From positions 1-54,943 of the forward strand of contig JBBDQU010000014.1 of NCBI GenBank assembly GCA_040905865.1: a stretch of DNA of 54,943 bases, read 5' to 3'. How positions within the stretch are numbered: the first letter of the stretch is position 1; every line of letters begins with the position of its first letter. The translations under genes and the position numbers were made by a program. This DNA is from Alphaproteobacteria bacterium (lineage in GTDB: Bacteria; Pseudomonadota; Alphaproteobacteria; UBA8366; GCA-2717185). The notes beneath the pieces were generated by a model. That model made no database searches. It was not told where the DNA came from and was given only the letters and a program-made list of their open reading frames with translations. Shown here in pieces: positions 50,039 through 54,943 of this stretch.

Positions 50039-50800
50039 CTAGAAGCTTTTCCCCGCCGTCCAGCCGCCATCGACCATCAGGGTCGTGCCGGTACAGAAGC
50101 CGGCGTCGTCGGAGGCGAGGAACAGGATCGCGCTGGCGATTTCATGCGGTTCGCCCCAGCGGTGCAGCGCGTGGATCGAGCGGATTTTTTCCGCGTCGTC
50201 GGCGTCCTGGAAATAGCGTTCGGTCATCGGCGTGCGGGTGACGCCGGGGCCGACCGCGTTCACGCGGATGCCCTGCCTGCCCAGTTCCATCGCCATTTCT
50301 TTCGTCAGCCCGACCACCGCATGCTTGGACGCGGTGTAGGCCGCGCGGTTCGGCGCCGCCGTCACGCCCAGCGTCGAGGCCAGGTTGACGATGGCCCCCT
50401 TGCGCCCGGCGGCGACCAGGTTGCGGGCAAACGCCTGGCAGGACAGGAACACCCCGGTCAGGTTCACGCCGATTACCCGGTTCCATTCCTCGAAGGACAG
50501 TTCCAGCACCGGCACGATCTCCCGCACGCCCGCATTGGCGACCAGCACGTCCAGCCCGCCGAAAGCGGCATCCGCATCGGCGATGAATCCGTCGACCGAA
50601 TCGGGGCTGGTCACATCGACCGCGAAGCCCTGCGCCGTGCCGCCCTCGCCGGTCACCGCCGCCGCGACCCGTTCCGCCATCGCGGTATCCAGGTCGCCGG
50701 CGGCCACCTTCGCGCCCTCGCGCGCAAACTGCAGGCAGACTTCCCGCCCGATCCCGCCGCCCGCCCCTGTGACGACGACCGTCCTGCCCCGAAACCGCAT
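50039..50800 (-). CDS. Short-chain dehydrogenase/reductase
   Basis: 253 residues, classical SDR. The NAD(P)-binding motif TGAGGGIGREV is at the N-terminus with an Asp after the second strand (AAGDLDTAMAE), suggesting NAD preference. VLVANAGV is the NAG motif and YTASKHA the catalytic YxxxK. The C-terminal SDDAGFCTGTTLMVDGGWTA is typical. It probably oxidises a secondary alcohol in the same catabolic locus as the aldolase, cupin and dioxygenase. Confidence 0.92.
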   Translation of the reverse strand: MRFRGRTVVVTGAGGGIGREVCLQFAREGAKVAAGDLDTAMAERVAAAVTGEGGTAQGFAVDVTSPDSVDGFIADADAAFGGLDVLVANAGVREIVPVLELSFEEWNRVIGVNLTGVFLSCQAFARNLVAAGRKGAIVNLASTLGVTAAPNRAAYTASKHAVVGLTKEMAMELGRQGIRVNAVGPGVTRTPMTERYFQDADDAEKIRSIHALHRWGEPHEIASAILFLASDDAGFCTGTTLMVDGGWTAGKSF

Positions 50801-50884
50801 GTTGTGTTCCTCCCTTGCGTGTCTGAGACGTCGACGGTAGCGGAGTGGGGCCGATAATGCGATAGTAGGCGCTGATCATCGCGG

Positions 50885-50980
50885 CATTCCCGGATCAAGG
50901 GAATGTTAACAAAAGGGGCCCATATTGCCCCTTTTTACAAAGCGACGATGGCTCCGTATCGCGGTATTTCAGGATACGGA
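50885..50980 (+). promoter_or_regulatory. Structured leader with three stem-loops before the second PAS kinase
   Basis: Three successive perfect stems: CATTCCC/GGGAATG (50885-50891 and 50899-50905); AAAAGGGGC/GCCCCTTTT (50911-50919 and 50927-50935), ending in a T-run like an intrinsic terminator; and TCCGTATC/GATACGGA (50953-50960 and 50973-50980). The last stem ends in GGAGGG. They lie between the divergent SDR and kinase genes, where no terminator is expected on the plus strand, so attenuation of the kinase gene is possible. Confidence 0.5.
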
Positions 50981-51003
50981 GGGCGCGTCTTGAAGGCTCC
51001 GGC

Positions 51004-52584
51004 ATGTCAGATGGCGTTCAACAGGTACCAGGAATTGGGGAAGCCGCGCTTGCGGCGCGCGACGCGCCGGCCCTGCATTCGCAACTGTCCGAGGGGATAG
51101 AGGCGCTGTCGGAAGGGCTTGCCATTTATGACACCGACGAGCGGTTGGTGTACTGCAACAGGGCCTACCGCGATTCGCTTCCCCGCCTGGCGGCGCTCGG
51201 CATCCTGCGGCCCGGGGTCAGTTTTTCCGAAATCCTGCGCGCCGGGATCGCACATGATTTCGTGCCGCCCGCCTATCGCGACGCCGATGATTTCTTCAAA
51301 AGAAGGCTGGACCGCTTCCGCAACCCCGCCGGCCGGTACGAATATGCCAGCACGGATGGCAAATGGTACCGGTGCGAGGAGCGGCGGACATCGAATGGCG
51401 GGACCGTCGCCATTCGCGCCGAAATCACGGATCGCAAGAGAGCCGAATTGTCGCTGGAGGAAAGCGAAGAGAATTTCCGCAATCTTGTCGAAGGGTCGCT
51501 GCAGGGCGTCAGCATCATCTCGCCGGCGCGCAAGCCGCTCTATGTCAACCAGGCCTATGCTGAAATATTCGGTTATGAATCGGCGGAGGCGGTGCTGGCA
51601 CTGGAAAGCACGGCGATCCTGGCGGCGCCGTATGACCGCGAGAGGCTGGCGGTTTACCGCATGGAACGGCTGCAGGGAAACGATGTCCCGACCCATTATG
51701 AATATGACGGTGTCCGCAGGGACGGCGAAATCGTGCATCTCCAGGCGATTTCCAGGTCCATCAGCTGGCGGGGCAGGAAAGCGGTCCAGGTGACGCTGCT
51801 GGATATCACCGAGCGCAGGAAAGCCGAGGCGCGGCAGCGGGAGCTGGAGGCTTCGCTGCGTCAGGCGCAGAAAATGGAAGTGGTCGGCCAGCTGACCGGC
51901 GGCATCGCGCATGACTTCAACAACCTGCTGGGGGTCATTATCGGGAATCTCGACTTTCTGGAAGAGGCGCTAAGGGACCGTCCCGACCTCCTTGCCCTGG
52001 TGGCGCCCGCGATGAAGGCGGCCCTTGGCGTCGCGTCGCTGAACCGGCAGTTGCTGTCCTTTGCCCGCCAGCAGCCCCTGTCGCCCGGGCCGGTGAACCT
52101 GAACGACAGTATCGCCGCAATGCTGGGCATGCTGCGCCGGACACTCGGGGACACGACGGAGATCCGGACGGAACCGGCGGACGGGCTGTGGCTGACGGAT
52201 GTGGATACATATTATCTGGAAAGCGCCGTGCTCAACCTGGCGGTCAATGCCCGGGACGCCATGCCGGACGGCGGAATGCTGACCCTGGCGACGTCCAATC
52301 TGCGCCTCGATACAGACGATCCGGCGGCGGATCCGGACCTGACCCGGGGCGACTATGTGCTGCTGGCGGTATCCGATACCGGTACGGGCATGGGGCGGGA
52401 AACGCTCGACCGCGCCTTCGAGCCGTTTTTCACGACCAGGGACGTCGGCCAGGGCAGCGGGCTCGGTCTGTCCATGGTGTTCGGCTTCGTCAAGCAGTCC
52501 GGCGGCCATGTGACGATCCGCAGCGCGGTCGGCCAGGGGACGACCGTGAACCTGTACCTGCCGCGCGCCATTCATCAATCCTGA
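51004..52584 (+). CDS. PAS-domain histidine kinase without receiver domain
   Basis: 526 residues, no membrane helix. The first PAS-type domain is LSEGLAIYDTDERLVYCNRA (about 35-140) and the second NFRNLVEGSLQGVSIISPAR (about 160-280). Then comes the H-box LTGGIAHDFNNLLGVIIGNL, N-box NLAVNARDAMPDGG and G-boxes VSDTGTGMG and GQGSGLGLSMVFGF. It stops after the ATPase domain, whereas its close paralogue at 44204-45889 continues into a receiver. Phosphotransfer must therefore go to a separate protein, possibly that receiver. The leader is structured. Confidence 0.93.
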   Translation: MSDGVQQVPGIGEAALAARDAPALHSQLSEGIEALSEGLAIYDTDERLVYCNRAYRDSLPRLAALGILRPGVSFSEILRAGIAHDFVPPAYRDADDFFKRRLDRFRNPAGRYEYASTDGKWYRCEERRTSNGGTVAIRAEITDRKRAELSLEESEENFRNLVEGSLQGVSIISPARKPLYVNQAYAEIFGYESAEAVLALESTAILAAPYDRERLAVYRMERLQGNDVPTHYEYDGVRRDGEIVHLQAISRSISWRGRKAVQVTLLDITERRKAEARQRELEASLRQAQKMEVVGQLTGGIAHDFNNLLGVIIGNLDFLEEALRDRPDLLALVAPAMKAALGVASLNRQLLSFARQQPLSPGPVNLNDSIAAMLGMLRRTLGDTTEIRTEPADGLWLTDVDTYYLESAVLNLAVNARDAMPDGGMLTLATSNLRLDTDDPAADPDLTRGDYVLLAVSDTGTGMGRETLDRAFEPFFTTRDVGQGSGLGLSMVFGFVKQSGGHVTIRSAVGQGTTVNLYLPRAIHQS

Positions 52585-52710: not shown

Positions 52711-52977
52711 ATGTCCATGGTCAAGAAATGCATATCGGTCACGGACCGGCAGGATGCCAGGATCAAGGCGCAGATTGAGTCCGGCCATTACGGCAATGAA
52801 AGCGAGGTCTTCCGGGAACTGATCCGGGAACGGCAGATTCGCGAAGGGGAAGCGGCAGGCGAAATAGAGGCCATCCGCGCAGCCTTGATCGACGGCGAGC
52901 GCAGCGGTTTCAGTGACCGGACGGTGGACGAGATATGGGACGACGCACGCCAGCGCCACCGGGCGACGCGTGGCTGA
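52711..52977 (+). CDS. parD: ParD-family antitoxin (ribbon-helix-helix)
   Basis: 88 residues. KKCISVTDRQDARIKAQIES, then GHYGNESEVFRELIRERQIR form the RHH DNA-binding part, and the C-terminal SGFSDRTVDEIWDDARQRH is the toxin-binding tail of the ParD/CC2985 group. It is complete and preceded by an operator-like palindrome on its -10. Its partner toxin gene overlaps by eight bases but is broken, so the antitoxin is probably an orphan. Confidence 0.88.
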   Translation: MSMVKKCISVTDRQDARIKAQIESGHYGNESEVFRELIRERQIREGEAAGEIEAIRAALIDGERSGFSDRTVDEIWDDARQRHRATRG

Positions 52978-53200
52978 ATACCGGCTTGCCGGCCGGGCCG
53001 CGGAAGACTTGCGGGAGATCGCGCAATTTGGCGACGACCGTTTCGGCACGGTTCACTCGGATCGGCGCGGCGGTTCACGCGCTGGGGCTGTATATTTCGG
53101 TGGCGGCGGTTTCCGGATAAGGTCTTTGCGGAATTCGTTGATGACTGCTTTCTTGACGGGAGCCCTGCATAAATCAGGATCTGACCCCGCCTGGAGGTAG
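52970..53200 (+). pseudogene. parE: Truncated ParE toxin gene fused to repeat sequence
   Basis: It starts at the GTG overlapping the parD stop (GTGGCTGA). The first 27 residues (VAEYRLAGRAAEDLREIA, QFGDDRFGT) match the ParE N-terminus. At about 53058 the sequence switches to a 135-bp repeat also found at 54202-54336, and the frame continues with unrelated residues to a stop at 53198-53200, giving 76 residues in place of the usual 95-100. The catalytic and antitoxin-binding C-terminal part is missing, so no toxin is expected. Confidence 0.8.
53058..53192 (+). repeat. 135-bp direct repeat, copy A (carries the 3' end of a hicB gene)
   Basis: Bases 53058-53192 match 54202-54336 without gaps at 119 of 135 positions by my count. 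In one frame it reads RIGAAVHALGLYISVAAVSG then stop, the C-terminal end of a HicB-type antitoxin. The non-coding remainder ends in GATCTGACCCCGCCT. The junction with parE is abrupt. Confidence 0.8.
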
Positions 53201-53257
53201 TCGGTTTCGATCCGACACGACTGCCGTGTTTGGCCTTTCCATTGCCCGGAAGCGCGC

Positions 53258-54001
53258 ATGTTCGCCGACCTGTCCTGTTCCCAGTTGCTGATGGTCGCCG
53301 TCGCGGCCTTCGGCACACAGATCGTCGGCGGGATCGCCGGATACGGAACGGGGCTATTGATGCCGCTGATCCTCGTGCCGCTGATCGGAGCGGAGGCGGC
53401 GGTGCCGGTGATATCCCTCGCCGCGCTGATCAGCAACCCGACCCGCGCGATCACCTTCTGGAAGGATATCGACCGCCGCAAGGCGGTTATCGTCGTTCTC
53501 TGCGCCCTGCCGGCGACGGCGGCGGGGGCGTACTGGTTCACCCTGCTGACCGGCCGCGGCGCGCAGATACTGATCGGCTGCCTGTTGATTGTCATGGTGC
53601 CGCTGCGGTACCTGCTGCGGCGTTTGCGGGTGCGGCTGGCAGGCGCCGGATTTATCGGTGCGTCGTTCGGGTTCGGCTTCCTGATGGGCGCGACTCCGGG
53701 CACCGGCGTTGTCCTGCTGTCGATCCTGATGGCGGCGGGACTGGCCGGAACCCAGGTGATCGCCACCGACGCCGCCATTTCCGCCGTGCTGGGCGTCGTC
53801 CGCACGGGCATCTATGCCGGTTTCGGCGCGCTGCCATGGAACATGGTGCTGCTGGCGGTCCTGATCGGCGCAATGGCGACGCCGGGGACCCTGACCGCGC
53901 GCTGGATCAGCCGCCGTTTCACCGCGGAATTTCACAACGGCATCTTCGACGCCGCCATCGTCACCGGCGGTGTCGTCCTGTTGTGGCAGGCGTTCCACTG
54001 A
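53258..54001 (+). CDS. TauE/SafE (TSUP) family sulfite/anion exporter-like membrane protein
   Basis: 247 residues with about eight membrane helices. The first half starts LLMVAVAAFGTQIVGGIAGY with GTGLLMPLILVPL and the conserved P-A-V-P-V-I-S-L-like AAVPVISLAALISNPTRA. The second half, GAGFIGASFGFGFLMGATPG with TGVVLLSILMAAG, repeats the pattern. TSUP proteins export sulfite, sulfoacetate or related anions. It is bracketed by the two 135-bp repeats, so it looks like cargo inserted between hicB and parE fragments. Confidence 0.88.
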   Translation: MFADLSCSQLLMVAVAAFGTQIVGGIAGYGTGLLMPLILVPLIGAEAAVPVISLAALISNPTRAITFWKDIDRRKAVIVVLCALPATAAGAYWFTLLTGRGAQILIGCLLIVMVPLRYLLRRLRVRLAGAGFIGASFGFGFLMGATPGTGVVLLSILMAAGLAGTQVIATDAAISAVLGVVRTGIYAGFGALPWNMVLLAVLIGAMATPGTLTARWISRRFTAEFHNGIFDAAIVTGGVVLLWQAFH

Positions 54002-54027
54002 CGCATCCCGGGCGCAGGTCTTGATTT

Positions 54028-54264
54028 GTGCGGAACGTTCGGTCGCCGGTTGGAAGCCTTACCAATTCGCCGCGCGCATCGCCCACCCGGAATGCCATGC
54101 GCTGCGGCGGCGTCACCAGGGCCGAACTGGCGAAACGCCTGCACTGCCACGCCCCGCAGGTGGACCGCCTGCTCGACCTCAACCACGCGTCGCGCATGGA
54201 CCGGATCGACGCGGCGTTTCACGCGCTGGGGCAGCGGATTTCGGTGGCGGCGGTTTCGGGGTAA
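54028..54264 (+). pseudogene. Remnant of a hicB antitoxin gene (C-terminal HTH)
   Basis: From about 54104 the frame reads CGGVTRAELAKRLHCHAPQV then DRLLDLNHASRMDRIDAAFH and ALGQRISVAAVSG, the C-terminal DNA-binding helix-turn-helix of HicB antitoxins. The N-terminal partial RNase-H-like domain is missing; upstream residues (RNVRSPVGSLTNSPRAS) show no family match. No hicA toxin gene is visible. The tail of this fragment forms the first part of repeat copy B. Confidence 0.7.
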
Positions 54265-54336
54265 GGTTTTTGCCGAATTCGTTGATGACTACTTTTTTGA
54301 CGGGAGCCTTGCACAAAACAAGATCTGACCCCGCCT
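54202..54336 (+). repeat. 135-bp direct repeat, copy B (includes the native hicB tail)
   Basis: This is the copy in which the coding part is continuous with upstream HicB sequence, so it is probably the source of copy A at 53058-53192. The two differ by 16 substitutions and no indels, so the duplication is not recent. After the hicB stop come 73 non-coding bases ending GATCTGACCCCGCCT, conserved between copies. Confidence 0.8.
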
Positions 54337-54425: not shown

Positions 54426-54943
54426 ATGCGCGATAGATTCCCTTGGTATTTTCTTGATCAGACAGATTACGATGCAGCTTGGGATAAAGGTATCCTCACC
54501 GTTGATACCAACGTGATGCTTGATCTCTACCGTTATAACAAATCGACGCGCGACGCGCTTTTGGCTGCGCTGGAGAGTTTCAACGGAAGGTTTTGGATAT
54601 CACACCAGACAGCCAAAGAGTTCGTGAAGAACCGACGCGTTGTCATTACTGACATGGAGAACGACTTCGACAAAGCCAAGAAACATGTCGAGGAAGTCGA
54701 AAAGGCGATGAGCACAGCTGTCAATGCTATTAGGGGCTGCCGGGTTGTCCCAAAAGAATTGATTGAGAATTTCGAGAAAGATATTCAGAAAGCGTGCGGG
54801 GATATCCGTGCAAAGATCGACAAAGAAAGAACAGTAATCCCTGACTACGAGAAGAATGACGATGTTGTGCAGCGGCTTGAAACAGCATTAGCAGGCTGCG
54901 GAAAAACGCAATGTTACGGCCCCTATCCGCTTGAGAGCAGGCT
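54426..54943 (+). CDS. PIN-like domain nuclease (PIN_8/DUF4935 type), partial
   Basis: The first 172 codons are present and the frame is open to the window edge. It begins MRDRFPWYFLDQTDYDAAWD, with the first acidic motif LTVDTNVMLDLYRYNKSTRD (Asp in VDTN) and the second conserved block RFWISHQTAKEFVKNRRVVI (Glu in AKEF). A charged coiled-coil-like stretch follows (KAKKHVEEVEKAMSTAV). This is the PIN_8 pattern of predicted metal-dependent RNases, often found in defence or accessory islands. GGTGGAGG precedes the ATG. Base composition is clearly lower in GC than in the rest of the window, suggesting horizontal transfer. Confidence 0.75.
   Translation, partial: MRDRFPWYFLDQTDYDAAWDKGILTVDTNVMLDLYRYNKSTRDALLAALESFNGRFWISHQTAKEFVKNRRVVITDMENDFDKAKKHVEEVEKAMSTAVNAIRGCRVVPKELIENFEKDIQKACGDIRAKIDKERTVIPDYEKNDDVVQRLETALAGCGKTQCYGPYPLESR

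Follow-up and report, generated by a model that had tools for sequence, protein, structure and literature searches.

Two direct repeats of 135 bases, each made of the tail of a hicB gene and the non-coding DNA behind it, stand on either side of a TauE/SafE-type permease gene near the right end of an alphaproteobacterial contig (JBBDQU010000014.1 of assembly GCA_040905865.1). The window is the whole of this stretch, with a length of 54,943 nucleotides, and its contig is termed C14. The left repeat lies exactly where a parE gene breaks off. How did the tail of one toxin-antitoxin gene come to be joined to the beginning of another, and was the gene between the repeats moved with them?

The repeat pair and the broken toxin-antitoxin genes

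The two repeats, termed copy A (left) and copy B (right), are directly oriented, 1144 bases apart and about 12% divergent, and they align without gaps (Table 1). The initial annotation of this locus was correct in their coordinates, their length and its hand count of identities. Both copies finish with GATCTGACCCCGCCT. The non-coding end was rightly described as the same in both, but it is 72 bases long and not 73, the stop codon occupying 54262-54264.

Table 1. Features at the right end of the window
Feature	Position	Strand	Remarks
parD antitoxin gene, 88 aa, intact frame	52711..52977	+	Pfam ParD_antitoxin, E 8.1e-10
parE 5′ fragment, codons 1-30 of about 95	52970..53059	+	cut at left border of copy A
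Copy A	53058..53192	+	hicB 3′ end (63 nt including stop) and 72 nt non-coding DNA ending in TIR; 119/135 identities to copy B
TIR of copy A	53167..53192	+	decayed; 3 mismatches in 18-mer
TauE/SafE-type permease gene, 247 aa	53258..54001	+	Pfam TauE, E 5.6e-18; synteny with G009
Inverted decayed TIR left of hicB remnant	54010..54031	-	3 substitutions in 22
hicB remnant, C-terminal HTH and stop codon, without N-terminal part	54094..54264	+	
Copy B	54202..54336	+	hicB 3′ end and non-coding DNA ending in TIR; conserved copy
TIR of copy B	54311..54336	+	exact match to 18-mer GCACAAAACAAGAYCTGA
PIN_8 gene, 5′ half	54426..54943	+	Pfam PIN_8 profile 2-139

At full length, the 135-base unit occurs at two places only in the 4.37-Mb, 85-contig assembly of its own genome (G000). 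A search of this genome with the 135 bases gives 43 matches at E up to 10, of which 41 are short, and several of the short ones cover the final 25 or so bases of the repeat. A dispersed 135-base family is thus ruled out. The initial annotation would have given up its mobile repeat if the genome had no further copies and a single tandem duplication accounted for the pair. The outcome is divided by half: a third full copy is absent, but copies of the terminal motif described below are many.

The hicAB and parDE loci are type II toxin-antitoxin loci, and remnants of both are found here, both broken. The parD gene is intact and also matches NCBIfam TIGR02606 (47.5 bits, cut-off 46.2), and the parE fragment overlaps it. 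With 30 codons, this fragment is too short for a Pfam match. Aligned to ParE-type proteins of three plasmids, it scores better than every one of 2000 shuffles in each case. One of these proteins, of 95 residues, is encoded on a Halioglobus plasmid behind the gene for a related ParD, and its residues 1-30 align with the fragment, which bears out the description of copy A as joined to the N-terminus of ParE. That parE is interrupted is accurate insofar as it is cut at copy A. The gene is truncated and not split, however, as codon 30 is followed by copy A in another frame and then by TauE.

Copy B is continuous with a HicB helix-turn-helix remnant, as first described: positions 54094-54261 match the PDB HicB chains 6hpb_B (E 8.3e-5) and 6u0i_A (E 9.6e-5). 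The remnant is 77% identical in DNA, over 170 columns, to an intact hicB gene of genome G010, the product of which matches PDB HicB at E 9.9e-13. The HicB sequences have no Pfam or NCBIfam match above cut-off. Further to the right, the window ends inside a PIN_8 gene, and the 3′ half of such a gene (profile 137-227) stands at one end of the G000 contig C70. Since the two contig ends (54943 and C70:79778) hold the halves of one PIN_8 gene, the contigs very likely adjoin. After the remainder of PIN_8, contig C70 carries a decayed inverted motif and then a GFA gene.

The permease gene and the two copies in related genomes

The neighborhood was compared among 11 genomes of the family, G000 included. 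Genome G009, of the same genus, is collinear with the window from 50049 to 52580 (SDR and kinase genes, 86.5%) and from 53214 to 53998 (TauE, 88.5%), and its TauE protein is 92% identical and encoded at the same place beside the same kinase. From this synteny, TauE keeps its place. Between kinase and TauE, G009 has different DNA, with an unrelated small gene where G000 has parD, the parE fragment and copy A; no match to the small gene was found in G000, in a search run without a positive control. A search of G009 with the 135 bases (E up to 0.001) gave no match, and the motif does not stand next to its TauE gene; the one motif-like place on the stretch compared adjoins the GFA gene. G010 lacks TauE at this locus and has, in order, SDR, small gene, intact hicB and GFA. 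TauE orthologs of another genus are found elsewhere (G004), and G002 and G003 match over TauE only. Judged by gene order, the TauE/SafE gene is probably a conserved neighbor of the upstream kinase and not cargo, and the repeats probably did not move it. The claim that the repeats had carried an exporter is not supported in view of G009, in which the gene is in place with neither repeat nor motif.

G010 also bears on the age of the two copies. When the non-coding tail of copy B is aligned to the DNA right behind the G010 hicB gene, the score is 20, with a shuffled mean of 7.1 and none of 2000 shuffles as good. The TIR alone scores 12 against 6.7 (4 of 2000 shuffles), and a reverse strand control scores 5 (1973 of 2000 shuffles). 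The intact hicB of G010 is thus followed by a decayed motif, and hicB probably already had a TIR behind it before G000 and G010 split.

The differences between copies A and B can be given a direction with G010 hicB as a single outgroup, in a comparison outside of which 3 of the 16 differences fall. All 11 resolved differences are derived in A: the 63 coding bases hold eight differences (seven in A, none in B, one either way), and the last 40 bases hold five (four in A, none in B, one either way). On this polarity, copy A is the changed copy, now decaying, and copy B has stayed conserved. That all of the differences lie on A means that copy B was conserved meanwhile, perhaps because hicB worked until recently; a simple copy of a dead gene would not predict this, which counts against the account preferred below. 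From the order in G000 and C70, copy B has its hicB remnant between TauE and GFA, the same interval in which the hicB gene of G010 precedes GFA. Copy B is, by inferred ancestry, the remnant of an ancestral hicB gene at or near its ancestral place.

The terminal motif and its transposases

The last 26 or so bases of the 135-base repeat belong to a dispersed motif, GCACAAAACAAGACCTGACCCC, referred to here as the TIR. Its 18-mer is found in G000 in eight exact copies, nine with one mismatch, two with two and 11 with three. This amounts to 17 places at up to one mismatch and 30 at up to three, compared to two for a reversed control pattern. Genomes G011 and G012 have 20 and 19 places at up to two mismatches, with none for the controls. 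Conservation among the 19 copies with up to two mismatches fades ahead of GCAC on one side and, on the other, no more than about five bases beyond CTGA. In the window, the only places with up to six substitutions in 22 bases are copies A and B and an inverted TIR that was absent from the initial annotation (54014-54031 in 18-mer terms, with two mismatches); the mean of 20 shuffles is 0.45.

An exact motif search of genome_contigs yielded 16 stretches, 10 from two Kiloniellaceae MAGs, two from one Acidobacteriota MAG, and one each from an alphaproteobacterium, a gammaproteobacterium, a Nitrospira and a Colwellia MAG. The motif also occurs in other arrangements. Tandem arrays with short spacers, of the type CCCCGGTTAACAAGACCTGACCCC, are present in a Kiloniellaceae MAG (L080:4813-4966, L083:4181-4352), as if the TIR end itself had been amplified. 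Palindrome-like inverted pairs about 40-70 bases apart, which resemble MITEs or REPINs, are found in Acidobacteriota, gammaproteobacterial and alphaproteobacterial MAGs (L082:5063-5118; L076:55-126 and 631-702; L075:7319-7373). At three G000 copies, GAGCTACCCCGG follows the motif core (C15:10644-10669 and C25:45535-45560, seen in L067 and L068; C48:70681). A longer string containing GAGCTACCCCGG is present at five G000 places, all near contig ends, including those of C38, C44 and C51, and looks like another multi-copy element that sits in the TIR and breaks the assembly.

G000 has three Y1_Tnp genes, on contigs C9, C45 and C81. The C45 gene, encoding a protein of 275 residues (E 3.5e-11), is flanked by inverted motif copies, one of which takes in the final codons and the stop of the gene, and a run of N separates its start from the upstream TIR. 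The motif therefore brackets one of the three genes, those on C9 and C81 not being bracketed at the stringency of the search, and the C81 gene has one motif copy about 900 bases away. In the Kiloniellaceae MAG G011 (L083), a 911-base unit of TIR, transposase gene and TIR is present at two loci, 97.7% identical and with different flanks, which means that this kind of element moves. The same genome has a 125-base solo copy of one end, at 98.4% identity. The C45 and G011 transposases are 73% identical and score 43.7 and 56 bits, respectively, for Y1_Tnp (cut-off 23). As a candidate for the HUH motif, an H-L-H stretch, DNHLHL, is visible by eye. C-terminal matches of the HTH_23, HTH_28 and ISL3 types (E 6.9e-5 to 6e-4 for C45, 2.7e-5 to 6.9e-5 for G011) are all below Pfam cut-offs, and all of the transposases are under the NCBIfam REP_Tyr_transpos cut-off (61-77 compared to 80).

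It has been reported that the TIRs of TIRtrons, or TIRYTs, share GGGGWSAS and that some overlap the 3′ end of the transposase gene (Di Nocera et al. 2013, PMC3733652). TIRYT denotes a TIR-associated tyrosine transposase, a kind linked to subclass 2.1 with a C-terminal HTH (PMC6006769). As far as these sources describe them, the features in common are a RAYT-like Y1 gene between GGGGWSAS inverted repeats (here GGGGTCAG, with one G011 end reading AGGGTCAG instead), a repeat that overlaps the 3′ end of the gene, and a family moderately repeated as singles, dimers and clusters. A C-terminal HTH may be in common as well, the matches here being weak and below Pfam cut-offs. The shared repeat tail thus fits the published description of the TIR of an IS200-like element of the TIRtron/TIRYT kind, as far as sequence comparison can tell. 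Single-end copies that include some 55-135 bases of interior DNA, one of them made of the tail of hicB, were not found in the parts of these descriptions consulted. REPtrons and the REP-RAYT system resemble the present elements in that their Y1 transposase is related, its gene is flanked by inverted repeats and copies are dispersed, but the motif here is without the GTAG/GTGG head. No hairpin better than those of shuffled sequences was found in either repeat tail (z -0.12 and 0.85), and a hairpin REP of the GTAG class is ruled out for lack of both head and fold. In the initial annotation, the non-coding end was proposed to be the end of a small RAYT-like mobile element, which agrees with the motif copies elsewhere in the genome and with the bracketed transposase gene. 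To call the repeat undescribed was too strong, as TIRtrons with GGGGWSAS TIRs had already been published (PMC3733652). Among the literature matches listed for the motif strings, no title concerned bacterial repeats.

Motif copies with up to one mismatch are found on seven G000 contigs, and on five of these a toxin-antitoxin or Fic gene is near: ParD and the HicB remnant on C14, TacA1 on C25, HigB on C45, ParD on C81 and Fic on C48. At 25 chance loci, 19 of 21 filtered short ORFs were scanned and none matched these families. The gene sets were picked differently and the ORFs at motif loci were scanned in part, so this company is a lead only. On C25, the TacA1 antitoxin gene (L068:1944-2773), which by eye adjoins a GNAT-like ORF, lies between TIRs of the same direction at C25:44370 and C25:45519, 1149 bases apart. 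A higBA-like pair (L065:1258-2085, equivalent to C45:24757-25584) is enclosed by TIR copies immediately next to the TIRtron transposase gene. The orphan parD of C81 was considered as another instance of a truncated parE and was not counted, as only about six ParE-like residues follow it.

Origin of copy A and its possible meaning

The sequences on both sides of the motif were compared for 23 copies in G000, 20 in G011 and 26 in G012, the last two genomes being represented by the loci of 15 of 20 and 15 of 19 listed places. A notable shared stretch was seen in 32 copy pairs, which are not independent of one another and include several G012 pairs only about 67-70% identical inward. In 25 of them, the shared stretch extends inward for 25-400 bases and outward for 14 at most. 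The other seven are reversed (17-84 bases outward, 16 at most inward) and comprise tandem arrays (L113, L129, L141), one L125/L129 pair and one C15/C25 pair, in which the same foreign DNA follows the motif. The pair in the window has 109 bases in common inward and eight outward. The right border of copy A is the end of the TIR, and sequence like that of G009 resumes within about 20 bases (53214, by eye).

These observations suggest a course of events in which the TIR of a TIRtron-kind, IS200-like element came to lie directly behind hicB. Copy B would be what is left of this hicB gene, with the TIR behind it since before G000 and G010 split. Copy A would be a second copy of the last 110 or so bases of the hicB locus and its TIR, placed between parD-parE and TauE; its insertion would have cut parE after codon 30 and left TauE unmoved. 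A Y1 transposase that acts at a single TIR may produce copies that stop precisely at the TIR on one side and raggedly on the inner side, where the break would fall in whatever DNA adjoins the TIR, in this case hicB. Copy A would since have been decaying. That the hicB tail with its TIRtron end was copied once nearby, by such one-ended Y1 copying, is the preferred account, and we give it about an even chance. The term “one-ended transposition” was not found among the literature matches listed.

Local recombination, by template switch, break-induced copying or unequal exchange, could have duplicated the hicB tail and left the same picture, the TIR being then a patch of homology or there by chance. 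The copies are close and of the same orientation, no third full copy is present in the genome, and tail and TIR are duplicated in tandem at C45 (72 and 99 bases apart) and C48 (90 apart), such as slippage could make. This course is plausible, if somewhat short of probable, as the right border coincides with an element end and the sharing is likewise one-sided among unlinked partial end copies in G011 and G012. It is this sharing among pairs, together with the solo end of G011, that favors one-ended copying at the TIR over plain local recombination, and neither is proven. No empty site with a clean junction is available for copy A, the corresponding interval of G009 being different DNA.

Alternatively, there may have been two distinct hicB loci, both carrying a TIR at the 3′ end, which were brought together here and left the tails of A and B. 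G010 hicB demonstrates that such a TIR is possible, and a separate, longer-dead locus would fit the placement of all polarized differences on A; nevertheless, the identity of 88% runs through non-coding DNA up to the end of the TIR, no other hicB-tail copy was found in G000 and only one among the 10 other family genomes, and we regard this origin as improbable. It is scarcely credible that the exporter was carried by a composite element bounded by copies A and B, as was first proposed. The repeats do bracket TauE in direct orientation, but their ends face the same way, they differ by 12%, and TauE of G009 has the same neighbor with no 135-base match or adjoining motif; on the last ground a composite transposon was rejected as a candidate.

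As the permease gene is not cargo, it would be wrong to record the locus as an exporter transposon. The earlier reading is partly supported: its cargo part fails, its RAYT-like part holds in the form of a TIRtron end, and the case is largely ordinary, a puzzling repeat explained by a published but little-studied kind of element. As a tentative generalization, one that we hold possible and somewhat doubtful, TIRYT-type transposases may work from a single TIR and disperse pieces of about 125-145 bases, composed of the TIR and about 100 inner bases, so that gene tails become their substrate; here, a hicB tail would have ended parE. If one-ended copying holds, wherever a TIR lies behind a gene, the tail of that gene would be copied too and could insert into another gene and terminate it. 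In this way, gene ends might be shuffled, and toxin genes broken beside their antitoxins, by a small single-strand transposase.
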